The notes below the pieces were generated by a model. The model was not told the DNA's origin. It saw only the letters and a list, made by a program, of their open reading frames with translations, and searched no databases. A stretch of 64,000 bases of DNA from Gemmatimonadaceae bacterium. GTDB taxonomy: Bacteria; Gemmatimonadota; Gemmatimonadetes; Gemmatimonadales; Gemmatimonadaceae. Of the stretch, positions 11,463-45,458 are shown piece after piece (the stretch's first letter is position 1; the number at the start of each line of letters is the position of its first letter). The position numbers were made by a program, and so were the translations under genes. Where the stretch lies: the NCBI GenBank assembly GCA_025928185.1, contig JAICKA010000005.1:1-64000 (forward strand), read 5' to 3'.

Positions 11463-11487
11463 TCGCGCAGGCGCACACCGCAGTCGC

Positions 11488-12155: not shown

Positions 12156-12173
12156 CTCGACCGGCTCGCGCGA

Positions 12174-12401: not shown

Positions 12402-12445
12402 GAGTTCCTCCCGACGGGTTCCATGGCAGGGTACGTGCCTCAGAG

Positions 12446-14218: not shown

Positions 14219-14339
14219 GCAGTCGGGAAAGAGAGTATCGAAACCCTAACACGACCGCGAGCGCACCGGCACTGGTGCTGCACCGCCTCGGTGGCGTTAG
14301 ATTCGCCCGTCCTTCCCCACGGTCGATCCCACCCGCCGC

Positions 14340-15407: not shown

Positions 15408-15430
15408 GCGTTTTGCGCCAAGGGAGAACC

Positions 15431-16498
15431 ATGAGAGTACTCTTATCAGCGGTGGCAGTGTCGGCCGTCGCCACGATCGCGTCGGCCCGCGCTGCAGGCG
15501 CGCAATGGACGCCGCAGGCGAGCGGCACGACGGCGGAGTTTCGCGGCCTGAGCGTCGTGTCGCCGTCGATCGTATGGGCGAGCGGCACCGGCGGACGCGT
15601 CGCCCGCACGACGGACGGCGGCAGAACCTGGACAGTCGACACCATCGCCGGCGCGGCGAATCTCGACCTGCGCGCCATCGCGGCGCGCAGCGCCACCCAC
15701 GCGGTCGCGCTCAGCTCCGGCCCCGCCGAGCAGGGCCAGGCGAAGATCTTCCGCACGACCGACGGCACGCATTGGACGCAGCAATATCAATCGACGCAGG
15801 CCGGCGTCTTTCTCGACGCGCTCGCATTCTGGGATGACGAGCATGGCATCGCGATGAGCGATCCCGTGGGCGGCAAGCTCTTTCTGCTGTCGACGGGCGA
15901 CGGCGGCGCGACCTGGACGCCGATCGACACGCACGCCGCACCAGACGTGCTCCCGGGGGAAGCCGCGTTCGCGGCGAGCGGCACGTGCATCACCGTGCAG
16001 GGCGCGGCGAACGTGTGGATCGCGACGGGCGGCGGTGCGCGGGCACGCGTGTTCCACTCGACGGACCGCGGCCGCACGTGGGCGGTCGCGGACACGCCGA
16101 TTCACGCCGGGAACTCCGCGTCGGGAATATTCTCGGTGGCATTTCGCGACGCACGGCATGGTGTGGTCGCGGGCGGCGAGTACACGAAGCCGAAAACGCC
16201 CGTCGACAACGTGGCGCTCACCGATGACGGCGGCCGCACGTGGCGGCTCGCGCGTGGTCCGCTGCCGGTCGGCTACATGTCCGCGGTGGCGTACATCCCG
16301 GGCACTCGCGGCCGAAGCGTCGTGGCGGTGGGCCTCGCCGGCACGGCGCTGTCGCGCGACGGCGGCGAGTCGTGGGCGATGACGGACAGTGTGGCGTACA
16401 ACAGTGTGGCGTTCGCGTCGCGCGATGCCGGGTGGGCGGCGGGGCCGCGCGGCAGGATCGTAGTTTGGGCCGGCAAAGGAAGTTCGGTAAAACACTGA
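15431..16498 (+). CDS. Secreted BNR/Asp-box beta-propeller (YCF48-like)
   Basis: 355 aa from the ATG at 15431 with AGGGAGAA upstream; the open frame to the left overlaps the antiporter gene and is not used. A signal peptide ends near residue 24 (AAGAQ). At least six Asp-box repeats follow: RTTDGGRTW, RTTDGTHW, STGDGGATW, HSTDRGRTW, LTDDGGRTW and LSRDGGESW, spaced about 45-60 residues. This is the propeller seen in photosystem-II assembly factor YCF48 and in sialidase-like secreted proteins. There are no catalytic sialidase residues, so binding or scaffolding is more likely. Confidence 0.82.
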   Translation: MRVLLSAVAVSAVATIASARAAGAQWTPQASGTTAEFRGLSVVSPSIVWASGTGGRVARTTDGGRTWTVDTIAGAANLDLRAIAARSATHAVALSSGPAEQGQAKIFRTTDGTHWTQQYQSTQAGVFLDALAFWDDEHGIAMSDPVGGKLFLLSTGDGGATWTPIDTHAAPDVLPGEAAFAASGTCITVQGAANVWIATGGGARARVFHSTDRGRTWAVADTPIHAGNSASGIFSVAFRDARHGVVAGGEYTKPKTPVDNVALTDDGGRTWRLARGPLPVGYMSAVAYIPGTRGRSVVAVGLAGTALSRDGGESWAMTDSVAYNSVAFASRDAGWAAGPRGRIVVWAGKGSSVKH

Positions 16499-30719: not shown

Positions 30720-31310
30720 CCACACCGCGGCGCTGCTCGCGATGGCGCCGCCGAGCAGCCATCCGCCGACGACGTCCGTGGCCCAGTGGTCGTCGGCCAG
30801 CACGCGATACGCGCCCATCAACACCGGCGGCACGATCGCCACGACCAGTACACCGCGCGTCGACAACAGCCGTTGCTGTCGCAGCACGCGCGCCGTCGCG
30901 AGCGCCAGGGCCGTGGCGCCGGTCGTGTGCCCGCTCGGATAGCTGTCGGTGCGACGCGGCTCGCCCGGGCGGCGCGGCCGCTCGCGTCGATAGAATACTT
31001 TAAATCCGCGATGTACGAGCCACCCGGCCCACGCGGCGCGTCGAATCTCGGGCGCGCGGCGACCGGTGCGACGGGCGATACGCCACTCGATGAGGTACGC
31101 AAGCGGGATATAGCCGCCCGGCAACCCGAGTGGAAAGAGCGGCCGAAGGGCCGTGGCGACGGGGCGTACACGCGGCGTGCGCGCCATGCGCCGTATTCGC
31201 AGGTCGATGGCCGTCGGCTCCTCGAGCTCGAGGGCGCGCGCCAGTAGAATCATGCCGCCGGCCGCGGCAATCGCCAGCGCTGAGTGTTTGGTCGGCACGC
31301 GCGGCAGCAA
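30687..31310 (-). CDS. PAP2-family phosphatase
   Basis: 207 aa if started at a TTG at 31310; a GTG at 31298 or an ATG at 31253 are alternatives and no ribosome site decides. Motifs: KVFYRRERP, YPSGHTTGATAL (about 124-135) and VLADDHWATDVVGGWL (about 172-187). The third motif has Asp-Asp-His where most members have SRxYxGxHxxxD, but the catalytic His and Asp remain. Mostly membrane-embedded. Substrate unknown. It overlaps the sensor-kinase 3' end and faces the AhbAB-like gene divergently. Confidence 0.8.
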   Translation of the reverse strand: MLPRVPTKHSALAIAAAGGMILLARALELEEPTAIDLRIRRMARTPRVRPVATALRPLFPLGLPGGYIPLAYLIEWRIARRTGRRAPEIRRAAWAGWLVHRGFKVFYRRERPRRPGEPRRTDSYPSGHTTGATALALATARVLRQQRLLSTRGVLVVAIVPPVLMGAYRVLADDHWATDVVGGWLLGGAIASSAAVWSDARGGRGGE

Positions 31311-31390
31311 TGCAGGGGATGCGCCAGCGACTGCGCACGGCAGGCGCGCGGTCGCTACAATTCGATCAGGTCATCACTCTGCCCCAGACG

Positions 31391-32515
31391 ATGCTCGACA
31401 CCATTCCCGCTGAGATCACCGATCCGGTAAACGCGCGCATTCTCGCGGTCTCCGAAGATCGTATTGCCGGTTTTCTCGTCGACCCGTTCGCGGAAATCGC
31501 GCGGCTGGCCGGCCTCGACACGCCGACCGTGCACGAGCGGTTGCGCGCCATGCTTGGCGCAGGCACGATCCGCCGCATCCGGCAAACGCTCATGGCCACG
31601 AATCTCGCGCCCGGCGCGCTGATCGCATGGCGAATTTCCAACGACAAGCTCGAGGCCGCGTTCGATTATCTCTGGAAGCAGGACCCGTTCTCCGGCCACA
31701 TCGTGATCCGGTCGACCGACTCGGAGACGACGGGATCGGCGTACCGGCTGTGGACCACGCTCAAGGTGCCGCAGGGCTTCTCGATGCAGAAGCACTGCGA
31801 TCTGCTCGAGGATCGAATCGGCGCCGAGGCATACCGCATCATGCCGGCAAAGCGGCTGTTCGCGCTCGGCGTCGGGCACGTGCGGCGGCGCGGCGTGGAA
31901 CCGGGCAGCAAGACCGATGAGCTGGGTGCGGTGATCAACACGAACATCGTCGAGCTGAGCGCGCTCGATTGGCGCGTGCTCGAGCCGCTCAAGCGCGAGC
32001 TGTCGGTGGACGAGATCGGCGACGACCTCTGGGCGAAGCGCGCCGCCGAAGCGGACCTGCCACTCGACGAATTCGTGCGCGTCGCGCGTTCGCTCAACGA
32101 GCGCGGGGTGATCGGCCGCTTCTCCACCTTTCTCGAGCACGTGAAGCCATCGGCTGGCGGCACGCGCGTCACGCGGTACAACGCGCTGTTCCACTGGCGC
32201 GTGCCGCCGGGCCGGGAGATCGAGGCCGGCCGCGAGATCGGACGCTTCCACATCCTGACGCACGCATACTGGCGCGAGGGCGGCGATGAGTTCGCGCACG
32301 TCAACATCATGGCCGTGGCGCACGGTACGGACAAGGCGCTCGTGCTCGCGCACAAGGCGGCGATCGACGAACACCTTGCGGCGATCGGCATGCCGGTGAG
32401 CTACACCAACGTATTCTGGGGCGGACGCAGCGAGATCAAACCATCGGAGATCTCGCCGGGCGCCTACGCGCGCTGGTGCCAATCGATCGGCGTCGACCCC
32501 GAGTCGATGCGCTGA
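31391..32515 (+). CDS. Fused AhbA/AhbB-like (Lrp/AsnC-type) protein
   Basis: 374 aa from the ATG at 31391; a longer frame starts at 31310. It is two Lrp/AsnC-like units in tandem. Unit 1 has a winged helix (FAEIARLAGLDTPTVHERLRAM) then SAYRLWTTLKVP and PAKRLFALGVG. Unit 2 has VIGRFSTFLEHVKP, YNALFHWRVPP, EIGRFHILTHAYWRE and AHVNIMAVAHG. These correspond to the siroheme decarboxylase subunits AhbA and AhbB (and NirD/L/G/H), which are normally separate chains. It could decarboxylate siroheme, bind a tetrapyrrole as a regulator, or have been repurposed; no other ahb gene is here. A TACAAT element lies at 31356-31361. Confidence 0.72.
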   Translation: MLDTIPAEITDPVNARILAVSEDRIAGFLVDPFAEIARLAGLDTPTVHERLRAMLGAGTIRRIRQTLMATNLAPGALIAWRISNDKLEAAFDYLWKQDPFSGHIVIRSTDSETTGSAYRLWTTLKVPQGFSMQKHCDLLEDRIGAEAYRIMPAKRLFALGVGHVRRRGVEPGSKTDELGAVINTNIVELSALDWRVLEPLKRELSVDEIGDDLWAKRAAEADLPLDEFVRVARSLNERGVIGRFSTFLEHVKPSAGGTRVTRYNALFHWRVPPGREIEAGREIGRFHILTHAYWREGGDEFAHVNIMAVAHGTDKALVLAHKAAIDEHLAAIGMPVSYTNVFWGGRSEIKPSEISPGAYARWCQSIGVDPESMR

Positions 32516-33426
32516 TGCCAGGCATCTCGCCCGACGCACGCGTCGGCCGCGTGCGACTTCGCGTCGCGGATCTCGAGCGCTCGCTCGAGCTGTACCGCGA
32601 CGTGCTCGGCTTCGAGGTCTCGGGGCGGGCGCACGGACTCGCCGCGTTGTCGACGCCTGCCGACGACCAGGGCGAGGGCGAGGAGCTGATCGTGCTCGAG
32701 GAGCGTCCCGGCATTGCGCGGCGTCCGAGTCGCCCGGTGACGACGGGCCTCTACCACGTCGCGTTGCTGCTGCCGAGCCGCGTCGCGCTCGGCGCGATGC
32801 TGCAGCAGTTCGCGCGCACGAACTACCAGTTGCGCGGCATGTCCGATCACGGTGTGAGCGAGTCGCTCTACCTCGACGATCCGGACGGCAATGGACTCGA
32901 GATCTACGCCGACCGTCCGCGCGAACGCTGGCCCATGCGCGACGGATCGATCGAGATGTCGATCGACCCGATGGACGTGAACGGCGTGCTCGGCGAAGCG
33001 GGCGCCGATCGCGACTGGACGCTGCCGAGCGGCACGCAAGTGGGCCACGTGCACTTTACGGTTTCCTCGTTGCAGGCCGCGGAAGCGTTCTACTGCGGCG
33101 CGCTCGGTCTGGACGTCACGCAGCGCACGCTCGTCGGCATCCTCGCCATGTCGGCCGGCGGCTACCACCATCACGTCAACCTGAACGTGTGGGCCGGGCG
33201 CAATCCGCCGTCCGATTCCGATGCCGTTGCGGGCCTGATCGAGTGGGAGCTGGTGATGGGTAGCGAACACGCCAAGGACGACGTGGAGCAACGGCTCGAG
33301 GCGGGCGGCTACGCGTTCCAGCGCGATGCGGAGGTGGTGCGCGCCGCCGATCCGGATGGCAACGTCGTCGTCGTGCGCGCCGTCACCGCGCGATCGCCAC
33401 GCCCCACGGCCGCTGCCCGCCCTTGA
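32515..33426 (+). CDS. VOC-family protein, two glyoxalase-type domains (CatE-like)
   Basis: 303 aa from the ATG at 32515, which overlaps the previous stop (TGATG). It has two VOC units: RVGRVRLRVADLERSLELYR with GLYHVALLLP and GNGLEIYAD, then GHVHFTVSSLQAAEAFYCGA with GGYHHHVNLNVWAG. The His/His/Glu arrangement of an Fe- or Mn-dependent extradiol dioxygenase (CatE/YfiE group) is present. The substrate is probably a catechol-like ring or glyoxal adduct, not determined. Its last 44 bases overlap the convergent propeller gene. It may be in an operon with the AhbAB-like gene. Confidence 0.82.
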   Translation: MPGISPDARVGRVRLRVADLERSLELYRDVLGFEVSGRAHGLAALSTPADDQGEGEELIVLEERPGIARRPSRPVTTGLYHVALLLPSRVALGAMLQQFARTNYQLRGMSDHGVSESLYLDDPDGNGLEIYADRPRERWPMRDGSIEMSIDPMDVNGVLGEAGADRDWTLPSGTQVGHVHFTVSSLQAAEAFYCGALGLDVTQRTLVGILAMSAGGYHHHVNLNVWAGRNPPSDSDAVAGLIEWELVMGSEHAKDDVEQRLEAGGYAFQRDAEVVRAADPDGNVVVVRAVTARSPRPTAAARP

Positions 33427-34396
33427 TCGTCGCGACCACGCGCCCAGTCGCGGTATCGATGGCCGAGATGTCGTTCGATAGACCGTTCGCCGTGTAGACG
33501 TATCGGCCGTCCGGCGTGATCGCGATGCCCCACGGCCGCTTTCCGACGGGAATCGTCGCCAGGAGCTTGTAGGTCCGCGCGTCGAACACCGACACGTTGT
33601 TCGTGTGGCCGTTCGCGACGTACACGCGCCTGCCGTCCGGCGAGACGACGACGCCGACCGGTTTACCCTCGCCGCGCTCGATCGGGATCGTCTTGATGAT
33701 CTGACGCGTCTTCGTGTCGACGACGGTGAGCGAGCCGCCCACCTCGGCCGTGATGAACGCCCGCTTGCTGTCGGGCGAGAATGCGGCGGCGCGCGGGCGT
33801 AGATCGACGAGCAGATTGTCGACGACCTTGTTGGTGTGCGCGTCGATGACGGACACGCTGTTGCTCGTTTCGCTCGTGACGTAGATCCAGCGCTGGTCCG
33901 GACTGACGGACACGCCTTCCGGCTCGATGCCGACGACGAACGTGCCGATCTGCCTGCCCGTGCGCACGTCGACGGCGGTCGCGGTGCCGCCGTCTTCATT
34001 GGAGGCGTAGATGCGTGTGCCGTCCGGCGTGATGCCGAACTGCTCCGGGTCGGACCCGACGCGATATCGGCGGACGATCTTGCGCGACGCGACGTCGATC
34101 GCGACGACGGCATCGATGCTCGACGTGGTCTTCATCGCGGTGTTCACGCCGATGTGCGGCGTTTCGCCGCTCACCGCCACGTAGACGCGTGAGGGATCGC
34201 GGCCGACCTGGATGCCACGCGCGCGGCCGCCGACCGGCACCGTGGCGACAACGCGGTTCGTGCGCGAGTCGATGAACGTGACGTTCTTCGACAGCTCGTT
34301 GCTGACGAAGACGAGCGGCGCCGACTGTGCGCGGGCGGCATGCGCGCCGCCGCCGAGCAGCATGGCGGCCGCGACGATGTATGAGCTTTCTCTCAT
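33383..34396 (-). CDS. YVTN beta-propeller protein of PQQ-dehydrogenase clusters
   Basis: 337 aa. Signal peptide to about residue 23 (HAARAQ). The rest is a seven-bladed YncE/YVTN-type propeller with repeats such as IYASNEDGGTATAVDVRTGR, IYVTSETSNSVSVIDAHTNK, VYVANGHTNNVSVFDARTYK and VYTANGLSNDISAIDTATGR. This matches the PQQ-dependent-catabolism-associated propeller family (TIGR03866), found next to alcohol dehydrogenases of the XoxF/ExaA type. It is translationally coupled (four-base overlap) to the binding-protein gene upstream. Role in the periplasm unproven. Confidence 0.83.
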   Translation of the reverse strand: MRESSYIVAAAMLLGGGAHAARAQSAPLVFVSNELSKNVTFIDSRTNRVVATVPVGGRARGIQVGRDPSRVYVAVSGETPHIGVNTAMKTTSSIDAVVAIDVASRKIVRRYRVGSDPEQFGITPDGTRIYASNEDGGTATAVDVRTGRQIGTFVVGIEPEGVSVSPDQRWIYVTSETSNSVSVIDAHTNKVVDNLLVDLRPRAAAFSPDSKRAFITAEVGGSLTVVDTKTRQIIKTIPIERGEGKPVGVVVSPDGRRVYVANGHTNNVSVFDARTYKLLATIPVGKRPWGIAITPDGRYVYTANGLSNDISAIDTATGRVVATIKGGQRPWGVAIAR

Positions 34397-35295
34397 TGCG
34401 CGAAGTAGCAGGGTGAGTCGGCGGCCGCTGTGCCGAGCTGGTCGAGCAGCGCGCGCGACGACTCCTCGCCGGAGCGCGCGACGGGTTGCTCGGCCGCGTG
34501 CGTCAACGCGCCGTTCGCCGCGCGCGTCATGACGTACACCGGCTGGCGAAGCTGGTGGTTCCAGGCGCGGAAGCTGAGCGGGCGGCCCTTGTAGCCGTCG
34601 AACTGCGTCGTGTCGCGCGCGAGGAACTCCGCGATCGCCGCGGCCGAGCCGGAGCGGGCGCGCAGCGCCGATTCCCAGAGAATCTTCACGGCGAACCAGG
34701 CGCCCCAGGCGTCGGGTGACATTCCGGTGTCAAACCGCGAGCGGAAGCGTGCGTTGAGCGTGTCGGCGCCGAACCGGACGAGCGACGGATCCCACGCGAC
34801 GGCGACGAGCGATGCGCCGGCGGCGCCGTGTTCCGACGCATGCGCGAGAGCGAGCGCGTCGCGCAGCATGGCGTCGCTCGGGACGACGTGATACGCCGAC
34901 CGATTGCACTCCGCGCCGCGCAACGCGTCGCTCGTGCACGCGGTGTTGAAGTAGAGAATGCCGGCGGCGGCCGCCGCGTGAGCGAGCGCCGAGCAGGTCG
35001 AGGAGTCGTCGCCGCCAAGGAGCGCGGACAAGCGGTGCGATCGTGCGTCGGCCGCGGTGGTGACGATCATCTCGATCGAACCGCCGAACAAGCTTGCGGC
35101 GCGCTTTGCTTCGTCGACGCCCATCGCGACGCCTTGCTGACGGGCGTGCGTCGGCGCGGCGTTCCGGTTGTCGCCGGGAACGACGCCGATGCGCACGACC
35201 ACGGGCGCGCGCGTACGATGGCGAACGAGTGGAGCGACCGCCGTCATCAGCGACAGTCGGCGGACGAACTCTCGTCGGGTGAGAACGAACGTCAT
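34393..35295 (-). CDS. Periplasmic binding protein-like, PQQ-alcohol dehydrogenase associated
   Basis: 300 aa. The Tat-like signal (TRREFVRRLSLMTAVA) is followed by a type I periplasmic-binding fold: GVDEAKRAASLFGG, HAAAAAGILYFNTACTSDALRG, YHVVPSDAMLRDAL and FAVKILWESALRA. It resembles the substrate-binding family linked to PQQ-dependent alcohol dehydrogenases (TIGR03863). No permease or ATPase is in the cluster, so it may deliver a ligand or act as a chaperone rather than feed an ABC importer. It is divergent from xoxF with 151 bases between them. Confidence 0.8.
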   Translation of the reverse strand: MTFVLTRREFVRRLSLMTAVAPLVRHRTRAPVVVRIGVVPGDNRNAAPTHARQQGVAMGVDEAKRAASLFGGSIEMIVTTAADARSHRLSALLGGDDSSTCSALAHAAAAAGILYFNTACTSDALRGAECNRSAYHVVPSDAMLRDALALAHASEHGAAGASLVAVAWDPSLVRFGADTLNARFRSRFDTGMSPDAWGAWFAVKILWESALRARSGSAAAIAEFLARDTTQFDGYKGRPLSFRAWNHQLRQPVYVMTRAANGALTHAAEQPVARSGEESSRALLDQLGTAAADSPCYFAQ

Positions 35296-35446
35296 TTCAA
35301 GTGCTCGGCAGGCGATGCAAACCGCGCGCCTCAGGTGCGTACGGCGGCGTACAAACGTCCGTTGATGCGATCCGCCGTTCTGCGCGCGACCGATTCATGG
35401 GAACGCTTCGTGCACCCGGGGCTGCTCGAGCACCTTCACGAGACAC
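35296..35446. promoter_or_regulatory. Divergent promoter region between xoxF and its partner genes
   Basis: 151 bases separate the divergent starts at 35295 (minus) and 35447 (plus). It must hold both promoters and any lanthanide or alcohol control. A TACAAA at 35350-35355 is a weak -10 candidate. No strong operator palindrome and no good ribosome site before the xoxF ATG are visible. Confidence 0.5.
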
Positions 35447-37315
35447 ATGCCCCGGCCAGCGCTGAGACACCGATTCGCGCGCCGCCTCCCCTGGCGCGCC
35501 GCCACATTCGCGGCAGTCCTCGTCGCAGCTTGCCATCCAGAGCGCTCGCGCTCCACTGGAAGCATCGATGTGCAGACGGGTGGAACGGCGAATCCCAACG
35601 CCGCGAATCTGCCGCCCGACGACGGGCAGTGGGTACGCCCCGCAAAGGATTTCGCCTCGACGCGCTTCAGCAGTCTGACCGAGGTCAATACGCAGACGGT
35701 GCGCAGCCTGCGCCCGATCGCGACATTCTCCACCGGCGTGTTGCGCGGCCACGAAGCGGCGCCGATCGTCGCGAACAACACGATGTACATCATCACGCCG
35801 TATCCGAACATCGTGTACGCGCTCGACCTCACGAAGCCCGGGCTGCCGGTGAAGTGGAAGTACAATCCGAAACCCGAGCTGTCGTCGCAGGGCGTCGCGT
35901 GCTGCGACGTCGTGAATCGCGGCGTCGTGTTCGACGCCGGCAAGATCTTCCTCAATACGCTGGACGGCCACACCATCGCCCTCGATGCGGCGACGGGCAA
36001 ACCCGTGTGGAATACAAAGGTGGCAGAGATCAACCTGGGCGAGACCATTACGATGGCGCCGCTCGTGGTGAAGGGGCGCGTGCTCGTCGGCGACTCTGGC
36101 GGCGAGATGGGGGTGCGCGGTTGGGTCAGGGGACTCGATGAGAATACTGGTGCCGTGGTCTGGACTGCGTATCACACCGGACCCGATCAGGATGTGCTCA
36201 TCGGCGCGAACTTCAAGCCGTTTTACGCCAAGGATCAGGGCAAGGATCTCGGAGTGAGCAGTTGGCCGCCGGGAATGTGGAAGATCGGCGGCGGCACGAT
36301 GTGGGGATGGATCTCGTACGATCCGGCGCTCGATCTCATCTACTACGGAAGCGCCAACCCGGGCCCGTGGAATCCGGACGTGCGCCCGGGCGACAACAAG
36401 TGGACGGCGACGTTGTTCGCGCGGCATCCGGAAGACGGACAGGCAGTGTGGGCGTACCAGATCACGCCGCACGATCTGCACGACTACGATGGCGTCAACG
36501 AGCAGATTCTCGTCGACCTGCCGATCGGCGGCGCGACGCGCAAGGTGCTCATTCGGCCGGATCGCAACGGCTACGTCTACGTCATCGACCGGCAAACCGG
36601 TCAGGTGCTCGCGGCCAACCCGTACGGTTTCATCAACAGCACCACCGGCGTCGATCTGAAGACCGGCGCGCTGCAGTACAATCCCGCCAAGCAGCCGCAG
36701 GTCGAGAAGGTCGTGCGCGACATCTGTCCGGCGGCACCCGGCGCCAAGGACTGGCAGCCGACCGCGTTTTCGCCGGTCACCGGCCTGCTCTACATTCCTC
36801 ATCAGAATTTGTGCATGGACGAGGAAGGACTCTCGGCCAACTACATCGCCGGCACGCCGTACGTCGGCATGAACGTGAAGATGTACCCTGGCCCCGGCGG
36901 AAATCGCGGCGAGTTCGAAGCGTTCAATCCGGTCACCGGCAAGCAAGCGTGGGCGATCAAGGAGGATCTGCCGGTGTGGAGCGGCACCGTCGTCACGGCC
37001 GGCAACGTCGCGTTCTACGGCACGATGGACGGGTGGTTCAAGGCCGTGGACGCGCGCACGGGACAGCTGCTCTGGCAATTCAAGACCGGCTCGGGCATCA
37101 TCGGCCAGCCGGTTACCTATCGCGGACCTGACGGCCACCAGTACGTCGCCGTGCTCTCCGGCGTCGGTGGGTGGTCCGGCGCGATCGTCGCCGGCGCGCT
37201 CGACCCACGCGATTCGTCGGCGGCGCTCGGCTTCGTCAATGCCATGCGCGACCTGCCCGACAAGTCGTCGCTCGGCGGAATGTTGTACGTGTTCGGACTC
37301 GGTCCGGCGACATGA
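35447..37315 (+). CDS. xoxF: XoxF-type lanthanide-dependent PQQ methanol dehydrogenase, lipoprotein
   Basis: 622 aa. The PQQ eight-bladed propeller carries the vicinal disulfide Cys152-Cys153 (GVACCDVV), Glu220 (GGEMGVRGW), Asn304 in SANPGPWNPDVRPGDNKWT, and HDLHDYDGVNE. The last has catalytic Asp346 plus the extra Asp348 (DYD) that marks lanthanide-binding XoxF; Ca-dependent MxaF has Ala there. The N-terminus reads AAVLVAAC with Cys29 as a likely lipid-anchored residue, unusual for a soluble periplasmic enzyme. It oxidises methanol or other primary alcohols and passes electrons to the cytochrome encoded next. Its stop overlaps the xoxJ start. Confidence 0.92.
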   Translation: MPRPALRHRFARRLPWRAATFAAVLVAACHPERSRSTGSIDVQTGGTANPNAANLPPDDGQWVRPAKDFASTRFSSLTEVNTQTVRSLRPIATFSTGVLRGHEAAPIVANNTMYIITPYPNIVYALDLTKPGLPVKWKYNPKPELSSQGVACCDVVNRGVVFDAGKIFLNTLDGHTIALDAATGKPVWNTKVAEINLGETITMAPLVVKGRVLVGDSGGEMGVRGWVRGLDENTGAVVWTAYHTGPDQDVLIGANFKPFYAKDQGKDLGVSSWPPGMWKIGGGTMWGWISYDPALDLIYYGSANPGPWNPDVRPGDNKWTATLFARHPEDGQAVWAYQITPHDLHDYDGVNEQILVDLPIGGATRKVLIRPDRNGYVYVIDRQTGQVLAANPYGFINSTTGVDLKTGALQYNPAKQPQVEKVVRDICPAAPGAKDWQPTAFSPVTGLLYIPHQNLCMDEEGLSANYIAGTPYVGMNVKMYPGPGGNRGEFEAFNPVTGKQAWAIKEDLPVWSGTVVTAGNVAFYGTMDGWFKAVDARTGQLLWQFKTGSGIIGQPVTYRGPDGHQYVAVLSGVGGWSGAIVAGALDPRDSSAALGFVNAMRDLPDKSSLGGMLYVFGLGPAT

Positions 37316-38202
37316 CGCGCGAACGACCCGATACCGTGGCGCGCTGGCAGGAGCTCGGCGTGCTACTGCTGCCGGCACTGCTGTTCGCCGGACTGGCGGC
37401 CCACCGCTCGTCGCCGGATGCCCTCGCGCAAACCACCGGACAGAGCGAAGCGACCGCGTTGCGCGTCTGCTCCGATCCCAACAATCTGCCGTTCTCGAAC
37501 CGCGCCGGTGAAGGCTTCGAGAACAAGATCGCGGAGCTGATCGGCCGCGAGCTCGGATTGCCGGTGACGTACGACTGGTGGGCGCAGCGTCGCGGCTTTG
37601 CGCGGAACACGCTGAACGCCGGCGACTGCGATCTCGTGGTCGGCACGGTGGCGGGCATGGAGATGCTCGCGACGACGCGGCCGTATTATCGGTCGACGTA
37701 CGTCTTCGTCATGCGGCGCGACCGCCACCTCGACATTCGCTCGCTGAACGATCCGCGGCTGCGGACGCTCCAGGTGGGCGTGCAGCTCATCGGCGACGAT
37801 TTCTCGAACACGCCGCCGGCCCACGCACTGGCCAATCGCGGCATGTCGCGCAACATCGTCGGCTATCCGGTCTACGGAGACTATCGCCAACCGAATCCGC
37901 CGGCGCGCATCGTCGACGCCGTCGCCAAGGGAAGCGTCGACGTTGCGATCGTGTGGGGCCCGCTGGCTGGCTATTTCGCAAAACGCTCATCGGTGCCGCT
38001 CACGGTCACGCCGGTCAGCCCGCAGGTCGATCTGCCGTATCTCCCATTCGTGTTCGACATCGCCATGGGCGTGCGGCGCGGCGATTCGACGTTCAAGGCG
38101 CGCATCGAGTCGGTGATCGTCAGGCGCCAACCGGCCATCGACAGCATTCTGGACGCGTACGGCGTGCCGCGGCTGCCGCTGGCGCACCGCGCATCGCCAT
38201 GA
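37312..38202 (+). CDS. xoxJ: XoxJ-type periplasmic binding protein
   Basis: 296 aa from the ATG at 37312, overlapping the xoxF stop by four bases. Signal or anchor helix at about 17-35, then a solute-binding fold: LRVCSDPNNLPFSNRAGEGFENKIAE, LPVTYDWWAQRRGFARNTL, CDLVVGTVAGMEML and VDVAIVWGPLAGYF. This is the quinoprotein-dehydrogenase-associated binding family (MxaJ/XoxJ, TIGR03871), thought to help assemble or activate the dehydrogenase. Gene order xoxF-xoxJ-xoxG is kept except that xoxJ precedes the cytochrome. Confidence 0.88.
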   Translation: MTRERPDTVARWQELGVLLLPALLFAGLAAHRSSPDALAQTTGQSEATALRVCSDPNNLPFSNRAGEGFENKIAELIGRELGLPVTYDWWAQRRGFARNTLNAGDCDLVVGTVAGMEMLATTRPYYRSTYVFVMRRDRHLDIRSLNDPRLRTLQVGVQLIGDDFSNTPPAHALANRGMSRNIVGYPVYGDYRQPNPPARIVDAVAKGSVDVAIVWGPLAGYFAKRSSVPLTVTPVSPQVDLPYLPFVFDIAMGVRRGDSTFKARIESVIVRRQPAIDSILDAYGVPRLPLAHRASP

Positions 38203-38212
38203 GGATTCCCTG

Positions 38213-38767
38213 ATGTCGCTTCGTTCCCTTTCAGGGTTGCTGCTCGCCGGGGGTGCGCTGCTTGCGCAGGGCTGCAAGCGCGAAGCTCGGCCGCTCGAGA
38301 GTCCCTCGCCCGGCGCGCCGACGCTGCGCGTCGCCGAAGGCGTGCTCCAGCCCGGACCGACCTTCATCAGCGATACCGTGGAAGGTCCATACGACGACAA
38401 CGCCTACGGCACGGCGATGGGCCAGCAGCTGTTCGTGCAGATGAACTGCAGCGGCTGTCATTCCAACGGCGGCGGCGGCATGGGGCCGGCGCTGATGGAC
38501 GACGAATGGATCTACGGCAGCGCGCCGCAGCAGATCTTCTCGACCATTGCCGAAGGCCGACCGAACGGCATGCCGTCGTGGAAGTACAAGCTGAACGACA
38601 AGCAGATCTGGGAGCTCGTGGCGTACGTCCGTTCGCTGAGTGGGCTCACGCCGAAGGGCTCACGGCCCGGACGCATGGATCACATGATGACGTCGCCCGC
38701 GCCGAACCAGACGCCGAACGCCAAGCCGAAGAACACCGGACTGCCCAACGCCTCCAAGCAGCCCTGA
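38213..38767 (+). CDS. xoxG: XoxG-like lipoprotein cytochrome c
   Basis: 184 aa. Lipobox LAQGC gives a lipid-anchored Cys21. One c-type heme site, CSGCH (C79, C82, H83), with Met120 in GRPNGMPSW as the likely sixth ligand. The tail is Pro/Asn/Lys-rich and poorly conserved. From its position it should take electrons from XoxF and give them to the fused cytochrome domain of oxidase subunit II, whose gene begins only three bases after its stop. Named XoxG by context; a generic cytochrome c would look alike. Confidence 0.82.
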   Translation: MSLRSLSGLLLAGGALLAQGCKREARPLESPSPGAPTLRVAEGVLQPGPTFISDTVEGPYDDNAYGTAMGQQLFVQMNCSGCHSNGGGGMGPALMDDEWIYGSAPQQIFSTIAEGRPNGMPSWKYKLNDKQIWELVAYVRSLSGLTPKGSRPGRMDHMMTSPAPNQTPNAKPKNTGLPNASKQP

Positions 38768-38770
38768 CGC

Positions 38771-39721
38771 ATGCACTCGTTCTTTCATCCGACGTCGCCG
38801 CAGGCCCACGTCGTCACCACGCTGTGGTGGTGGATGTTCGGCGTGGGTGGCGCGGTATGGCTGATCGTCGTCATCGCGATGCTGTACGCGGCTCGCGCGC
38901 ACCGCGGCGAACGCGGCGACGATGGGCTGCTGCACGTGTCCGAATCGACGTACCACGCGATGGAACGTACCGTCATCGGGGCGGGTGTGGTCACGGTCGT
39001 GATTCTGCTGGCATTTCTGGCCTACGACTTTTCGGTCGGCGAGGCGCTGGCGCAGCATCCGGATCGCGCGCTCACGATCGATCTCACCGGACATCAGTGG
39101 TGGTGGGAAGCGACGTACGAGGATCCTGATCCGAGCAAGCGCATCACCACGGCGAACGAGATCCACGTGCCCGTTGGCCGGCCGGTGCAGATCAAGCTCC
39201 GATCGGCGGATGTCATTCACGGCTTCTGGGTGCCGAACCTGAACGGCAAGCGCGATCTGATTCCGGGCTACGTGAGCAGCCAGTGGTTCACCGCCGACAC
39301 CGCCGGTACATACCGCGGGCAGTGCGCGGAGTTCTGCGGATTGCAGCATGCGAACATGGCGCTGTACATCATCGCCGAACCTGCGGCGAAGTTCGACGCG
39401 TGGCTCGCCGCCTCCAGAACGACCGCCCCGCTGCCGACCAATTCAGCGACGCGCTTCGGCGAGCAGGTGTTCCTGACGGCGAACTGCGCGGTCTGTCACT
39501 CCATCGCGGGCACGCCGGCGATGGCGACGGTCGGGCCGAACCTCACGCACGTCGCCAGTCGGCGGAGCATCGCGGCGGGAACGCTCGCCAACAACAGAGC
39601 GAATCTCATGGGCTGGATCGTCGATCCGCAGGCGTTCAAGCCCGGCACGCTCATGCCGAAATCCACGATGCAACCGGCGGAGCTCCAGGCACTCGTCGCC
39701 TATCTGGAGACGCTGAAATGA
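38771..39721 (+). CDS. ctaC: Cytochrome c oxidase subunit II fused to cytochrome c (caa3 type)
   Basis: 316 aa. Two membrane helices (about 18-42 and 67-86), the HQWWWEATYED strand, and a complete CuA site: His150, Cys185, Cys189, His193, Met196 in CAEFCGLQHANM. After a linker, a C-terminal cytochrome c has CAVCH (239-243) and Met295 (GTLMP). This fusion defines caa3-type oxidases, which take electrons directly from a donor cytochrome. The stop overlaps the subunit I start (ATGA). The gene begins right after xoxG, tying the oxidase to alcohol oxidation. Confidence 0.93.
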   Translation: MHSFFHPTSPQAHVVTTLWWWMFGVGGAVWLIVVIAMLYAARAHRGERGDDGLLHVSESTYHAMERTVIGAGVVTVVILLAFLAYDFSVGEALAQHPDRALTIDLTGHQWWWEATYEDPDPSKRITTANEIHVPVGRPVQIKLRSADVIHGFWVPNLNGKRDLIPGYVSSQWFTADTAGTYRGQCAEFCGLQHANMALYIIAEPAAKFDAWLAASRTTAPLPTNSATRFGEQVFLTANCAVCHSIAGTPAMATVGPNLTHVASRRSIAAGTLANNRANLMGWIVDPQAFKPGTLMPKSTMQPAELQALVAYLETLK

Positions 39722-41670
39722 CCGCCCACGGCGCGAACCTGCCAGCCGACGTGACGCTCAGCGATGCCGCGATCGCCGATGAAGCCGCGACGCTGGACGC
39801 CGTGTGGCGCGACAAGCCCGGCTTCTGGGGCTGGCTCACGACGGTCGACCACAAGTCGATCGGCAAGCGGTATCTGATCACCGCCTTTCTCATGTTCCTG
39901 GCCGGCGGCATCGAAGCCGCCATGATGCGCACGCAGCTTGCGCGGCCGGAGAATGCGTTCCTCGGGCCCGATCGCTACAACCAGATCTTCACGACGCATG
40001 GCACGACGATGATGTTCCTGTTCGCCGTGCCCGTGATGAACGCCATGGGACTGTACTTCGTTCCGCTGATGGTCGGCGCGCGCAACGTCGCCTTCCCGCG
40101 CCTGAACGCGTTCGGCTACTGGTGCTATCTCGTCGGGGTCGTGTTCCTGTACGTGTCGCTGTTCGTGAACATGGGTCCGAACACCGGATGGACGGCGTAC
40201 GTCCCGCTCTCTGGGCCGCAGTTCGCGCCGGGCCATCGCGTGGACGTGTGGGCCCAGCTCGTGACGTTCACCGAGATCGCCGCGCTCGCCGCGGCCGTGA
40301 ACATCATCGTGACGACGTTCAAGATGCGAGCGCCCGGGATGTCGCTGAATCGCATCCCGATCTTCGTCTGGGCGCAGCTCGTCGTGTCGTTCATGATCGT
40401 GTTCGCGATGCCCGCCGTGGCGACGGGCAGCACGATCATGCTCGCCGCTGATCGCGCGGTCGACACGCAGTGGTTCAACCCCGCCGAAGGCGGCGACTCG
40501 CTGCTCTGGCAACACGTGTTCTGGTTCTTCGGGCACCCCGAGGTCTACATCATCTTTCTGCCGGCGCTCGGCATGATCACGCCGATCATCGAAACGTTCA
40601 GCCGGCGGCGGGTGTTCGGCTACTCGGCGCTCGTGCTGGCGAACATCACGACCGCGTTCTTCGGGTTCGGGTTGTGGGTGCACCACATGTTCGCGACGCC
40701 GATTCCCGAGTTGGGGCAGAGCTTGTTCACGGCGGCGAGCACGCTCATCGCCATTCCAACGGGCGTGCAGATCTTCTGCTGGATCGTTACGATGTGGTCC
40801 GGCCGGCCGCGCTTCACGACGGCGATGCTGTTCGTGCTCGGCTTCTTTTTCACCTTCGTGATCGGCGGCATCACCGGGGTGATGCTCGCGTCGGTCGGTT
40901 TCGACCAGCAGGCGCACGATACCTTCTTCGTCGTGGCGCATTTCCATTACGTGCTGCTCGGCGGCGCGGTGCTGCCGCTCATGGCCGCGTTCTATTTCTG
41001 GTATCCCAAAGTCACCGGCCGGCTGCTCAGCGAGCGGCTGGGCAAGTGGCACTTCTGGCTGTTCGTGATCGGCGTGAACGTCACCTTCTTCCCGATGCAC
41101 ATCCTCGGGCTCGAAGGCATGCCGCGGCGCGTCTACACGTATCACGAGCCGACCGGCTGGGGACCACTCAACCTGCTCGCGTCGCTTGGGGCGGTGGTGA
41201 TCGCGATCTCCGTCGTCATCTTCGTCGTCAACCTCGTCAAGAGCTATTGGTCGGGCGAAGTGGCCGGGCCGGATCCGTGGAGCTCGTCGGGTCTCGAGTG
41301 GGCGACAGCATCGCCCGCACCGTCATACAACTTTCTACATACGCCGATCGTCGGCAGCCGGCACCCGCTCTGGGAGCCGACCACGGACGCGCCGGTGCTC
41401 GTCGGCCTGCGCACCGACCGGCGCGAGGTGCTGTTGACGACGACCTTCGACGCACGGCCCGACAGCCGCAATCATCACCCCGATCCGTCGATCTGGCCGC
41501 TGTACGTCGCGTTGTGCATGGGCGTGACGTTCATCGGATCGATTTTCTCGCCGTACTTCATTCTCGGCGGAATCGGGCTGGCCTTCATCGGGCTCGCGGC
41601 GTGGGCGTGGCAAAGCTCGCATTCGGGCGGCCATGAGCTGATCGCCGCACCCGAGGCGGAGCCGATATGA
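39718..41670 (+). CDS. ctaD: Cytochrome c oxidase subunit I
   Basis: 650 aa from the ATG at 39718. Twelve core helices contain the heme a ligand His94 (FTTHGTTMMF), the CuB site in FFGHPEVYI with the cross-linked His/Tyr, HHMFATP, and AHFHYVLLGG with the heme a3/heme a histidines. The usual HHMFxTG is HHMFATPIPELGQ here. After the core, a polar linker (about 540-600) leads to two extra helices (SIWPLYVALCMGVTFIGSIF ...). Haem-copper oxidase type A by the HPEV Glu. Four-base overlaps on both sides. Confidence 0.93.
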   Translation: MTAHGANLPADVTLSDAAIADEAATLDAVWRDKPGFWGWLTTVDHKSIGKRYLITAFLMFLAGGIEAAMMRTQLARPENAFLGPDRYNQIFTTHGTTMMFLFAVPVMNAMGLYFVPLMVGARNVAFPRLNAFGYWCYLVGVVFLYVSLFVNMGPNTGWTAYVPLSGPQFAPGHRVDVWAQLVTFTEIAALAAAVNIIVTTFKMRAPGMSLNRIPIFVWAQLVVSFMIVFAMPAVATGSTIMLAADRAVDTQWFNPAEGGDSLLWQHVFWFFGHPEVYIIFLPALGMITPIIETFSRRRVFGYSALVLANITTAFFGFGLWVHHMFATPIPELGQSLFTAASTLIAIPTGVQIFCWIVTMWSGRPRFTTAMLFVLGFFFTFVIGGITGVMLASVGFDQQAHDTFFVVAHFHYVLLGGAVLPLMAAFYFWYPKVTGRLLSERLGKWHFWLFVIGVNVTFFPMHILGLEGMPRRVYTYHEPTGWGPLNLLASLGAVVIAISVVIFVVNLVKSYWSGEVAGPDPWSSSGLEWATASPAPSYNFLHTPIVGSRHPLWEPTTDAPVLVGLRTDRREVLLTTTFDARPDSRNHHPDPSIWPLYVALCMGVTFIGSIFSPYFILGGIGLAFIGLAAWAWQSSHSGGHELIAAPEAEPI

Positions 41671-42275
41671 GACGACTGCGCCCCGCAGGCAGCGTCGCCG
41701 AGCTGCCGACCGTGACGTTCGGCCACCGGAGCCTGATGTGGTGGGGCACGCTCGGCTTCATGACGATCGAGGGGTGGACCACCGCGCTGCTCGTAGCCTG
41801 CTACTTCTATCTGCGGCAGAACTTCGTGTCGTGGCCGCCGCTCCGCACGCCGCTTCCGAGTTTGCTCATCCCGTCGATCAACCTCGCAGTGATGCTGATC
41901 AGCATCGTGCCCGCGTATCTGGTCGAACGGGCGGGCAAGCGACTCGACGCGATGCCGATGCGCCGCTGGCTCGTGGTCTCGAGCCTGTTCGGCATCGCCA
42001 TTCTCGTGCTGCGCTGGTACGAGCTCTGGTCGCTGAACATCCGCTGGGACACCAACGCGTACGGCACCGCGGCGTGGACGCTCGTCGGCTTCCACGCCAC
42101 GCTGCTCGTGCTGGACGTGGCCGATACGATCGGGCTCACGCTGTTCCTGTTCATCAAGCGGATGCCGCCCAAGACGTTCAGTGACGCGGCGGACAACAGC
42201 TTCTACTGGTATTTCACCGTCTGTCTCTGGATTCCGCTCTATCTCATCGTCTATGTCGGCCCGCGAATTTTCTGA
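41667..42275 (+). CDS. ctaE: Cytochrome c oxidase subunit III
   Basis: 202 aa, shorter than classic subunit III (about 260), with five membrane segments as in caa3/bo3 oxidases. Recognisable features are LGFMTIEGWTTALLVACYFYLRQN, WDTNAYGTAAWTLVGFHATLL and DNSFYWYFTVCLWIPLYLIVY at the end. It overlaps the subunit I stop (ATGA) and the next gene by 23 bases. It stabilises the core subunits. Confidence 0.87.
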   Translation: MRRLRPAGSVAELPTVTFGHRSLMWWGTLGFMTIEGWTTALLVACYFYLRQNFVSWPPLRTPLPSLLIPSINLAVMLISIVPAYLVERAGKRLDAMPMRRWLVVSSLFGIAILVLRWYELWSLNIRWDTNAYGTAAWTLVGFHATLLVLDVADTIGLTLFLFIKRMPPKTFSDAADNSFYWYFTVCLWIPLYLIVYVGPRIF

Positions 42276-42675
42276 TCGCGCCGTCGGTTCGCCGCCCGAC
42301 CTCGACGCGCTTCCCTGGTTCGCACGTTGGCGCGGACTGCTCAGCCTCTCGCTCGGGTTGCTGCTCGCGCCGACCGTGGCGCTGATCAATCAGGAGCTGA
42401 TCTACACGGCGGACACCTGGGCGTGCGGCCACGGCATGGGTGGGACCATTCACATCGTGCCGGCACTCTGCCTGATCGTGACGATTGGCGCCACGATCAG
42501 CGCCTATCGCAACTGGCGCGCGGTCGGCGGCGGACTCGAAGAGGAAGCCGCGACGGTGAGCGCGCGCACGCGGTTCCTCGCGCTGCTCGGGATCGTCAGC
42601 AGCGCGTTCGCGTCGCTGGTGATTCTCGCGCAATGGGCGGCGGTGTTCGTGTTCAACCCCTGCGCGCGCGGCTGA
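42253..42675 (+). CDS. Small membrane protein of the oxidase operon, unknown
   Basis: 140 aa from the ATG at 42253, overlapping ctaE by 23 bases. Three membrane helices (about 30-52, 68-87 and 112-133) with a conserved-looking loop TADTWACGHGMGGTIHIVP and a final FNPCARG. Its place between subunit III and CtaG suggests an oxidase subunit IV-like or assembly role, but I recognise no family. The Cys/His-containing loop might bind copper or heme; this is a guess. The stop overlaps the ctaG start. Confidence 0.7.
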   Translation: MSAREFSDRAVGSPPDLDALPWFARWRGLLSLSLGLLLAPTVALINQELIYTADTWACGHGMGGTIHIVPALCLIVTIGATISAYRNWRAVGGGLEEEAATVSARTRFLALLGIVSSAFASLVILAQWAAVFVFNPCARG

Positions 42676-43541
42676 TGCTTCCGATTGGCGGCGTCGGCGT
42701 GCGCGACCTGACCGAATGGTCGTGGGAGCCGGGCGTCCTCCTGCCACTGCTCGCGAGCGCCGTGGTGTACGCGCGCGGGGCGTACGCGCTGCGCCGCCGC
42801 GCCGCGCGTGGTGGCGTTCGATCGTGGGAGATCGCCGCGTTCGCCGCGGGGTGGCTGACCACGGCGCTGGCGCTCCTCTCGCCGCTGCACGAGGCGTCGG
42901 AGCAGATCTTCACGGCACACATGATTCAGCACGAGCTGCTGATGGTCGTCGCCGCGCCGCTCTTCGTGCTCGGCCGCCCGATTCCGGTCATGCTCTGGGC
43001 CTTTCCGCGCGACACGCGCCGCCGGCTCGGCGATGTGGCGCACGCGCGCCCTGTGCGCGGTACATGGGCCGCGCTCACCCGGCCGGTCGACGCGTGGCTC
43101 ATTTACGGAATCGTGATCTGGGTGTGGCACATCCCGGCATTCTACGATCTCACGCTGCGCAGCGATGCGGTGCACGCGCTGCAGCACGCCTGCTTTCTCG
43201 GGAGCGCCCTGCTATTCTGGTGGAGCATGCTGCGCGGCGGCCGGCGCGCAGCAGCGGGTACCGCGGTGCTCCTGCTATTCACGACCGCCGTGCACACGAG
43301 CGTGCTCGGCGCGCTCATGACGTTCTCACGCACGCCATGGTACCCGCCGTACGCCGCCGGCGCGGCAGCATGGGGACTCACACCGATGGGTGACCAGCAG
43401 CTCGCCGGTCTGATCATGTGGATTCCACTCAGCGTGGTATACCTCGTCGCCGCACTCGCCGTTCTACGGCGCTGGCTGGCCGACTCCGAGTGGACGGTGG
43501 CGCAACGCGAGCGCGCCGTAGCCGCCGCACCGCTGCGCTGA
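42675..43541 (+). CDS. ctaG: Cytochrome oxidase assembly protein, CtaG/caa3_CtaG family
   Basis: 288 aa from the ATG at 42675 (TGATG overlap). Seven membrane segments; conserved motifs SPLHEASEQIFTAHMIQHELLMVVAAPL (split by helix turns), VWHIPAFYDLTL, LQHACFLGSALLFWW and MGDQQLAGLIMW. The His-rich motifs are typical of the caa3_CtaG family, needed for copper delivery to haem-copper oxidases. It closes the xox-cta operon, 18 bases before the Nramp-like gene. Confidence 0.88.
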   Translation: MLPIGGVGVRDLTEWSWEPGVLLPLLASAVVYARGAYALRRRAARGGVRSWEIAAFAAGWLTTALALLSPLHEASEQIFTAHMIQHELLMVVAAPLFVLGRPIPVMLWAFPRDTRRRLGDVAHARPVRGTWAALTRPVDAWLIYGIVIWVWHIPAFYDLTLRSDAVHALQHACFLGSALLFWWSMLRGGRRAAAGTAVLLLFTTAVHTSVLGALMTFSRTPWYPPYAAGAAAWGLTPMGDQQLAGLIMWIPLSVVYLVAALAVLRRWLADSEWTVAQRERAVAAAPLR

Positions 43542-43559: not shown

Positions 43560-44771
43560 ATGCCAAAGCCCCTCGAGATCACCCTTGGCATCGTGACCAG
43601 TGTCGGCGGCTTTCTGGAAATCGGATCGATCACGACCGCGGCGCAGGCGGGCGCCGGCTTCGGGTATCAGCTCGCCTGGTCCGTGCTCCTCGGCACCGTA
43701 TGCATCGCGTTCCTGGTCGAGATGTCCGGCCGATTCTCCGCGGTGAGCAAACACACCATCCCCGATGCGATGCGCGAGCGATTCGGCGTCAACTTCTTCG
43801 CCGTGCCGTTGTTCGTCATGCTCGGGGTGTCGCTGCTCGTTCTCGCCGCCGAATTGGGCGGCGTGGCCGCGGCGCTGAAGCTCGCAACCGGCATCAGCAT
43901 TCCCGTATGGGCAGTGCCGGTGGCTTTCATCGCGTGGGGTGTGTTGTGGCGTGCACCGTTCAGTCTGATCGAGAACGGCGTCTCGCTGCTCGGTCTCGTG
44001 ACGATCGCGTTCGCCGTGGCCGCCGTGAAGTCGCATCCGTCGTACGCCGGCGTCGCCCACGGACTGCTGCCGACGCTGCCGCACCGCGATTCGGCGCACT
44101 ACTGGTTCATTGCCGTGAGCGTTCTCGGTGCATCGATCACGCCCTCGCTCTACTACTTCTACTCCTCCGGTGCGATCGAGGAGAAGTGGGACTCCAGCTA
44201 CATCGCCACCAACCGCGCGATCGCCGCGATCGGCATGGGGTTCGGCGGGTTCCTCTCGCTCTCGGTGCTCGTCGTCGCGGCGCACGTCTATCCGCGCGGA
44301 TCGAGCATCGATCACTACCAGCAGTTGCCGGCGCTGCTGTCCTCGCTGTTCCATCGAACGGGCTTCTGGCTGTTCATCGCCTCGCTGGGGATCGCCTGCA
44401 TCGGGGCCACGATCGAGATCGCCCTGTCGCTCGCGTACCTCGTCGCGCAGGGATTTGGTTGGAACTGGGGTGAGAATCTGCAGCCCCATGTTGATGCGCG
44501 GTTCAGTCTGACCTACACTGCGCTCATAGCGATCGCATCGCTGCTCGTGTTGTGTGGTCTGGATCCGATCAAGCTGACGAACATCTCGATGGCGCTCACC
44601 GCCGCGTCGCTGCCGATCGGCGTGTTCCCGTTTCTCATTCTCATGAACGACTCTTCCTACCTGGGTGAGCACACCAACGGGCGCCTCGGCAACGCCGTCG
44701 TGCTTGCGATCAGCGTGATTGCGGCGCTGCTCGCCGTCGTGTCGATCCCGCTCGAGATCGTCGGAGGCTGA
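43560..44771 (+). CDS. Nramp-fold transporter with altered metal site
   Basis: 403 aa, eleven membrane segments. It aligns to Nramp along QAGAGFGYQLAW and the TM6 region, but the helix-1 DPGN is EIGS (20-23) and the helix-6 MPH is TPS (194-196). The soft Met ligand is thus lost and all candidate ligands are oxygen-based, so Mg2+ or another hard cation is more likely than Mn2+ or Fe2+. Nramp-related Mg2+ transporters with changed sites are known. Two PRC-barrel genes and a kinase gene follow with two- to three-base gaps or overlap, pointing to one operon. Confidence 0.85.
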   Translation: MPKPLEITLGIVTSVGGFLEIGSITTAAQAGAGFGYQLAWSVLLGTVCIAFLVEMSGRFSAVSKHTIPDAMRERFGVNFFAVPLFVMLGVSLLVLAAELGGVAAALKLATGISIPVWAVPVAFIAWGVLWRAPFSLIENGVSLLGLVTIAFAVAAVKSHPSYAGVAHGLLPTLPHRDSAHYWFIAVSVLGASITPSLYYFYSSGAIEEKWDSSYIATNRAIAAIGMGFGGFLSLSVLVVAAHVYPRGSSIDHYQQLPALLSSLFHRTGFWLFIASLGIACIGATIEIALSLAYLVAQGFGWNWGENLQPHVDARFSLTYTALIAIASLLVLCGLDPIKLTNISMALTAASLPIGVFPFLILMNDSSYLGEHTNGRLGNAVVLAISVIAALLAVVSIPLEIVGG

Positions 44772-44773
44772 GC

Positions 44774-45130
44774 GTGCATCTCATCGCCGAAGTGCTCGAC
44801 GCGCAACTCAAGGATGTGAACGGCCGAAATTCCGGCCGCATCGACGGCATCGTCCTGGAACTACGCAACGACAAGCCGCCTCGCGTCGCGTACGTCGAGA
44901 TCAGCCCAATCACGCTGCTGGCTCGGTTCAGCGAGCGTTTTGCCTGGTGGTACGCCAGGTTCGATCGGCGGCTCGCGCCCGGGCGCGGCACACCGTTCCG
45001 CATCGCATGGTCGCGCATCACCCGGTCCGGTCCGACGCTGCAAACGGATCTCGATGTGGAGTCCACGTCGATCATGGCGCTCGAGGATTGGCTGCGCGAA
45101 CGAGTGGTCTCGCACATTCCGGGGAACTGA
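44774..45130 (+). CDS. PRC-barrel-like protein 1
   Basis: 118 aa from a GTG at 44774, two bases after the transporter stop. The N-terminal half (EVLDAQLKDVNGRNSGRIDG and IVLELRN) looks like a PRC-barrel; a basic, aromatic middle (RFAWWYARFDRRL) and another strand set follow. PRC-barrels bind RNA, proteins or membranes and, in some Nramp and MgtE relatives, are fused to the transporter. Here they may regulate it as separate subunits. Confidence 0.65.
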   Translation: MHLIAEVLDAQLKDVNGRNSGRIDGIVLELRNDKPPRVAYVEISPITLLARFSERFAWWYARFDRRLAPGRGTPFRIAWSRITRSGPTLQTDLDVESTSIMALEDWLRERVVSHIPGN

Positions 45131-45131
45131 C

Positions 45132-45458
45132 GTGATCGCGAAGGAAGTGCACGTCGAGCTGCTGCTCGGCCGCCGCGTTCACGACGTCGACGGCCGCGCC
45201 GTCGGCCGGATCGAGGAGCTGCACGTCGAGATCATCGACGGCGAGAGCGTGGTGACCGAGTATCACCTCGGCAGCGCAGCCCTCGTCGAGCGAATGGCCG
45301 AGTTCGTCAGACAGCTTCCGTTCTTCCAATCGCTGCCCGGCATGCGGTCCGAATATCGCGTCCGCTGGAAGGATCTCGATCTCTCGGATCCGCGCCACCC
45401 GCGGCTTCGTGTTCCACGATCCGCGCTCCAGCGCGGACCCATCGAAGGTCCTGCGTGA
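45132..45458 (+). CDS. PRC-barrel protein 2
   Basis: 108 aa from a GTG at 45132. A clearer PRC-barrel: KEVHVELLLGRRVHDVDGRA and VGRIEELHVEIIDGE with following strands. The C-terminal half (YRVRWKDLDLSDPRHPRLRV) is basic. It starts one base after the previous stop and overlaps the kinase gene start (GTGA). Likely an accessory or regulatory subunit for the transporter. Confidence 0.75.
   Translation: MIAKEVHVELLLGRRVHDVDGRAVGRIEELHVEIIDGESVVTEYHLGSAALVERMAEFVRQLPFFQSLPGMRSEYRVRWKDLDLSDPRHPRLRVPRSALQRGPIEGPA

Follow-up and report, generated by a model that had tools for sequence, protein, structure and literature searches.

A XoxF3-type alcohol dehydrogenase operon in a Gemmatimonadaceae bacterium carries a caa3-type oxidase with altered proton-channel residues

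We describe an operon in a 64,000-nucleotide stretch of DNA (the window: positions 1 to 64,000 of contig JAICKA010000005.1, assembly GCA_025928185.1) from a soil bacterium of the Gemmatimonadaceae (phylum Gemmatimonadota), in which xoxF, encoding a pyrroloquinoline quinone (PQQ) alcohol dehydrogenase of XoxF3 type, is followed on one strand by genes for XoxJ, a lipoprotein cytochrome c and a caa3-type terminal oxidase with key residues of both canonical proton channels replaced. We give a probability of about 0.6 to reading the locus as a XoxF3 module for alcohol oxidation that has a terminal oxidase of its own, depends on imported PQQ, pumps few or no protons and acts as a weakly energy-conserving electron sink. 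The genome is a draft (90.1% complete, 288 contigs), and statements on presence or absence in it rest on family searches.

In the proposed scheme, XoxF in the periplasm, loaded with PQQ and a lanthanide and presumably assisted by XoxJ, would oxidise methanol or another short alcohol. The lipoprotein cytochrome c would take up the electrons and hand them on to haem c and CuA of subunit II (CtaC), from which they would reach, through haem a, the haem a3-CuB site of subunit I (CtaD) and O2, with chemical protons arriving by a rebuilt or periplasmic route. We infer the substrate, electron transfer, lanthanide use, pumping loss and PQQ uptake, while gene content, order, residues, tree placement and the lack of pqqC, pqqE and fae matches are read directly from sequence.

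Proton-channel residues of the oxidase

In canonical oxidases both the D and the K channel bring in cytoplasmic protons, with those that are pumped travelling by the D channel. The window ctaD (39718..41670, + strand; TIGR02891, 705 bits, cut-off 671) encodes a subunit I whose AlphaFold model folds like other family-A oxidases (Z 46). At the canonical channel residues listed in PMC3084760 (P. denitrificans numbering), the D-channel positions D124, N113, N131 and E278 are N, L, N and E in the window, and the K-channel positions K354, T351, S291 and Y280 are Q, T, T and Y; neither set is that of a pumping A1-type oxidase. Alignment and codons place N123 (AAC, 40084..40086, + strand) at the D-channel entry Asp position, D124, and Q351 (CAG, 40768..40770, + strand) at the K-channel Lys position, K354.

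Residues were counted in 54 rows of the window's subclade (A), 23 rows of a second subclade (B) and 43 other oxidases. K354 is present in none of the A rows (Gln in 52) or B rows, and in 42/42 readable others; D124 is kept in 5/54 A rows, mostly in B and in 43/43 others, and N113 in 2/54 A rows and 43/43 others. The E278 equivalent (E275 in the window) is retained in 53/54 A rows and is Trp in 23/23 B rows; subclade B seems to have been altered in a different way from A. Beside the D-channel serine positions, subclade A has a further Glu in 54/54 rows (window E186, 40273..40275, + strand; alignment and codon), where 41 of the 43 other oxidases have Gly.

The oxygen-reducing site is intact. The six His and Tyr280 (window Tyr277) are kept throughout the CtaD rows wherever readable, and window subunit I carries this Tyr with the ligands of haem a, haem a3 and CuB. 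Subunit II, encoded by ctaC (38771..39721, + strand; TIGR02866 above cut-off), has a complete CuA site and a fused C-terminal haem c, as in caa3 oxidases, with both sets of ligands kept in nearly all of 68 rows. The window oxidase thus shares with canonical A1-type oxidases (P. denitrificans and R. sphaeroides aa3, Thermus caa3) the fold (Z 43-46), the haem and CuB ligands, Tyr280, E278, CuA and a caa3-like fused haem c, and differs from them in K354 to Q, D124 to N and N113 to L; its CtaD resembles the R. sphaeroides laboratory mutants D132A and K362M (structures 3omi and 3om3) combined.

The loss of both key channel residues beside an intact oxygen site suggests either that pumping is slight or absent or that protons take a rebuilt route via E186 and E275; we predict that proton pumping is reduced or absent. 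If the oxidase does not pump, XoxF3 alcohol oxidation would yield little energy, which would change how XoxF3 abundance in soils is read; conserved oxidases of this kind would also be natural counterparts of the classic D- and K-channel mutants and allow a direct test of proton delivery to the oxygen-reducing site.

Several points weigh against the module as proposed. E275 is retained and a new conserved Glu stands at E186, so a pumping channel may have been rebuilt, and some subclade A rows keep the D-channel entry Asp. Adaptation to XoxF does not by itself account for the altered channels, since the same oxidase type adjoins other dehydrogenases on plasmids where xoxF is absent, and growth on methanol is doubtful because neither fae nor a glutathione formaldehyde dehydrogenase above cut-off was found. 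The first of these points underlies a possible, if rather unlikely, alternative, an ordinary energy-conserving XoxF3-caa3 chain pumping normally through a rebuilt channel of E186, E275 and other residues. Alternative K channels are indeed known in other oxidase families (PMC3084760); such a chain would, however, have to work with key residues missing at both usual N-side entries in subclade A, with the usual Glu-Val-x-Trp motif missing from the subunit II helix (judged by eye) and with Trp in place of E278 in subclade B. We consider unlikely the far broader proposal that the terminal oxidase of XoxF3 systems is electroneutral, a haem-copper enzyme of a widespread clade in which both canonical proton inputs are lost and the protons for O2 reduction come from the periplasm, rare-earth alcohol oxidation in many soil bacteria being then an uncoupled electron sink and not an energy respiration.

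In CtaD trees (quick trees with Shimodaira-Hasegawa-like approximate likelihood ratio test, SH-aLRT, support in place of bootstrap), the window CtaD clusters with xoxF-linked CtaDs of other phyla, apart from housekeeping CtaDs of its own genus and family. When housekeeping CtaDs of Mesorhizobium, Microvirga, Bradyrhizobium, Azospirillum, Acidobacteria, Verrucomicrobia and others were included, a single branch still set the xoxF-linked group apart (SH-aLRT 99.9). A housekeeping CtaD fragment of the same genome (contig C168) groups with its own genus and retains D124 and E278. With plasmid sequences included, the clade's rows, lacking the K-channel lysine in 88/88 cases (K-less), lie on one side of a branch and 51 others on the other (SH-aLRT 99.7). 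By sequence, the window oxidase looks dedicated to the XoxF module.

Loss of the K-channel lysine is not by itself a unique mark of this clade: it is also missing from three oxidases that belong to another lineage, occur in related genomes (L282, L283, L284) and keep D124 and E278, and such losses have been reported in archaea (PMC8239418). No earlier description of the clade was found in the open-access full-text literature, although one may exist elsewhere; as far as that literature shows, the altered proton channels are undescribed for XoxF systems, while the xoxF-oxidase operon itself is already known.

The operon and its XoxF enzyme

The initial annotation had listed xoxF, xoxJ, a cytochrome c gene, the three oxidase subunit genes, a small membrane protein gene and ctaG as one tightly packed unit, and all are present as open reading frames (ORFs) in that order and on that strand (+), in agreement with family searches. 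The xoxF gene (35447..37315; TIGR03075, 614 bits, cut-off 480) overlaps xoxJ (37312..38202; periplasmic binding protein, TIGR03871, 311.9 bits, cut-off 212) at ATGA, as do ctaC and ctaD, and ctaD and ctaE. The lipoprotein cytochrome c gene (38213..38767; lipobox LAQGC, single CxxCH motif CSGCH at residue 79) is bounded by gaps of 10 bases on the xoxJ side and 3 bases on the ctaC side; its product scores 44 bits against the MoxG family (cut-off 148), so the name XoxG is given by position. Subunit III, encoded by ctaE (41667..42275), is assigned from weak family matches, position and conservation. The small membrane protein ORF (42253..42675), kept in relatives, overlaps ctaE by 23 bases and is overlapped by 1 base by ctaG (42675..43541; caa3 assembly factor, Pfam Caa3_CtaG, 209.6 bits). 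On the same strand follow an NRAMP-like gene, starting 18 bases past ctaG, and two small ORFs. Independent promoters or terminators had been named as evidence that would speak against a single unit; a consensus scan for one promoter type, weak evidence in itself, found no excess of either within it.

The gene order is retained in 4/5 other genomes of the genus, so the locus is not a chance arrangement, and the same order is found in further families and among Acidobacteria, Proteobacteria, Verrucomicrobia and Rokubacteria. Among 80 loci found by XoxF alignment, ctaD lies on the same strand as xoxF in 53, on the opposite strand in 3 and nowhere within the piece in 24, many of which are short contigs or contig ends. 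The earlier statement that these genes are usually scattered is therefore wrong for this XoxF clade. That a XoxF operon with an oxidase is new must likewise be rejected: passages of Voutsinos et al. 2024 (PMC10875860) describe XoxF3 clusters with oxidase genes in Acidobacteria and Gemmatimonadetes, and the window operon is thus a member of a published kind. Those clusters and the window alike contain XoxF3, XoxJ, XoxG, CytC, CoxI-III, CtaG, a small hypothetical protein between CoxIII and CtaG, NRAMP and YncE. Oxidase phylogeny and proton-channel residues are not discussed in the relevant passages of that paper, which describe XoxF3 systems as so far without experimental study; such systems are common in soil. 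Added here are, further, a second, permuted locus in the same genome and the lack of pqqC, pqqE and fae matches.

Alignment to the structure 4mae, invariant columns and codons show that the window XoxF has the adjacent Cys152-Cys153, the metal ligands E220, N304 and D346, and an additional Asp, D348; its motif HDYDG carries D346 and D348, where the MxaF structure 4tqo has DYA. An extra Asp two residues past the catalytic Asp marks lanthanide enzymes. Lanthanide use, proposed at the outset, is thus supported by sequence, and the enzyme may act on methanol or on a different alcohol. In a XoxF tree with five PDB references, the window sequence falls in a 111-row clade (SH-aLRT 99) that groups Acidobacteria and Gemmatimonadota, apart from the XoxF1, XoxF2, XoxF5 and MxaF structures. 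Since the tree held no named XoxF3 or XoxF4 reference, the XoxF3 label follows from this separation together with the published clusters. Methylotroph XoxF-XoxG-XoxJ systems (XoxF1, XoxF2, XoxF5) have in common with the window the enzyme family, the metal ligands and the XoxJ partner; unlike in those systems, the window XoxF lies outside their clades, its terminal oxidase is in the same operon and there is no fae.

The first proposal, that XoxF and cytochrome c form a dedicated route for electrons from alcohol to a caa3 oxidase, is well supported by the conserved order and the oxidase tree. The initial interpretation as a whole is partly supported; it lacked the altered proton channels, the second xoxF-oxidase locus, the NRAMP gene and the two small ORFs.

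The second locus, in the same genome (L037, G000:C146:169000-188999, positions 5414-15918), has the permuted order ctaD-ctaE-ctaG-xoxF-xoxJ-cytochrome-ctaC. Its oxidase is of subclade B (E278 to W), and a gene for a PQQ dehydrogenase close to TIGR04528 lies divergently. A third K-less caa3 cluster of this genome (L038, G000:C224) is cut off by the contig end immediately upstream of the gene for its cytochrome c.

Electron donors of related oxidases

The first oxidase sample was collected through XoxF and hence biased, so the family-A COX1 genes in 24 related genomes, and also plasmid records, were examined. In the 24 genomes, 13/19 K-less CtaD genes (3 of the 19 belonging to the other lineage) lie at most 10 kb from xoxF, against 0/26 genes with the lysine (Fisher p 4e-7, kinship ignored). 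All ten oxidases examined in plasmid records, which were found through CtaD, are K-less; xoxF is clearly a neighbour of one and an FdhF/YdeP-like gene of five, and the others adjoin sorbosone/glucose dehydrogenase genes or neither. The FdhF/YdeP-linked caa3-like oxidases are on plasmids of Rhizobium, Paraburkholderia, Sphingobium and Paracoccus (L302, L303, L304, L305, L308). Given the bias of the XoxF-found sample and these other dehydrogenase neighbours, we rejected a restriction of the altered oxidase to xoxF; it is a module that combines with several donors, of which XoxF3 is one. Related K-less CtaDs also occur on S. meliloti pSymB and other plasmids, belonging to what we take to be the alternative CoxMNOP-type oxidases of rhizobia. 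These rhizobial plasmid oxidases differ from that of the window in a CtaD apparently fused to CtaE and in their dehydrogenase neighbours.

The close plasmid oxidases beside FdhF/YdeP-like genes, and the 6/19 K-less CtaDs of the 24 genomes not seen near xoxF, would fit a general alternative respiratory oxidase that merely adjoins xoxF and serves several cytochrome c donors in vivo. We judge this quite unlikely, as the tight order from xoxF to ctaG is kept across phyla and no more than 5 changes are needed to account for oxidase type (A or B) on the XoxF tree with its 71 linked loci.

The NRAMP-like gene (43560..44771, + strand; PF01566, 185.6 bits) encodes a transporter whose metal-site motifs in transmembrane helices 1 and 6 (EIGS and TPS in the alignment) depart from DPGN and MPH. 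It is accompanied by two small conserved ORFs (44774..45130, no Pfam match, and 45132..45458, with a start codon; both + strand with conserved neighbours). The same set (43560-45458 in the window) recurs in the same genome away from xoxF (L311, 9505-11442) and, on a Rhizobium plasmid, next to an oxidase linked to FdhF (L302, 13603-15510), which weakens the candidate role of the NRAMP-like protein as a lanthanide importer for XoxF.

PQQ supply, carbon metabolism and flanking genes

The initial annotation found no pqq genes in the window and concluded that PQQ must come from elsewhere, which now holds more strongly: pqqC and pqqE have no match in the six genomes available for the genus, this one included (three of the six being at least 99% complete), while seven relatives match strongly. 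PQQ synthesis is given as possible in only 16/38 XoxF genomes in the passages concerned of PMC10875860. The genome encodes a TonB receptor (contig C197, L116) with F99, R304 and R365, the aromatic residue and the two arginines of the published PqqU signature; of all families PqqU fits it best, by about 200 bits, with a score of 370 bits against an NCBIfam cut-off of 1200. Because a receptor with this signature is present, PQQ is probably imported, by a PqqU-type receptor, and the genus-wide absence of PQQ synthesis would add a cofactor dependency on neighbours. The missing pqqC and pqqE could also mean that PQQ is not made and the locus is non-functional here; this is highly improbable, given the intact active-site residues, the conservation of the locus, PqqU-signature receptors in this genome and its relatives, and PQQ scavenging reported for Gemmatimonadetes (PMC12124388).

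For carbon metabolism, fae had no match in this genome or genus and was positive in six relatives, and no glutathione formaldehyde dehydrogenase above cut-off was found; the organism is probably not a methylotroph of the tetrahydromethanopterin (H4MPT)-linked type. A formate dehydrogenase alpha match (660 bits) elsewhere in the genome (L312, G000:C134:51691-53559) contains one in-frame TGA, possibly selenocysteine.

Two genes divergent from xoxF had been assigned to families known beside PQQ dehydrogenases. The assignment stands for the YVTN/YncE-like periplasmic beta-propeller (33383..34396, - strand), a member of the PQQ-dependent-catabolism family TIGR03866 (290.6 bits, cut-off 287.3); the second product, a periplasmic binding protein (34393..35295, - strand; Peripla_BP_6), is only like TIGR03863 of the PQQ alcohol dehydrogenase system (126.8 bits, cut-off 413.6). 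The region lies between genes for sensor histidine kinases with GAF domains (28248-30719 and 45455-47758), and an AsnC/siroheme-decarboxylase-like protein (31130-32515) immediately precedes a glyoxalase-family gene (32476-33426).

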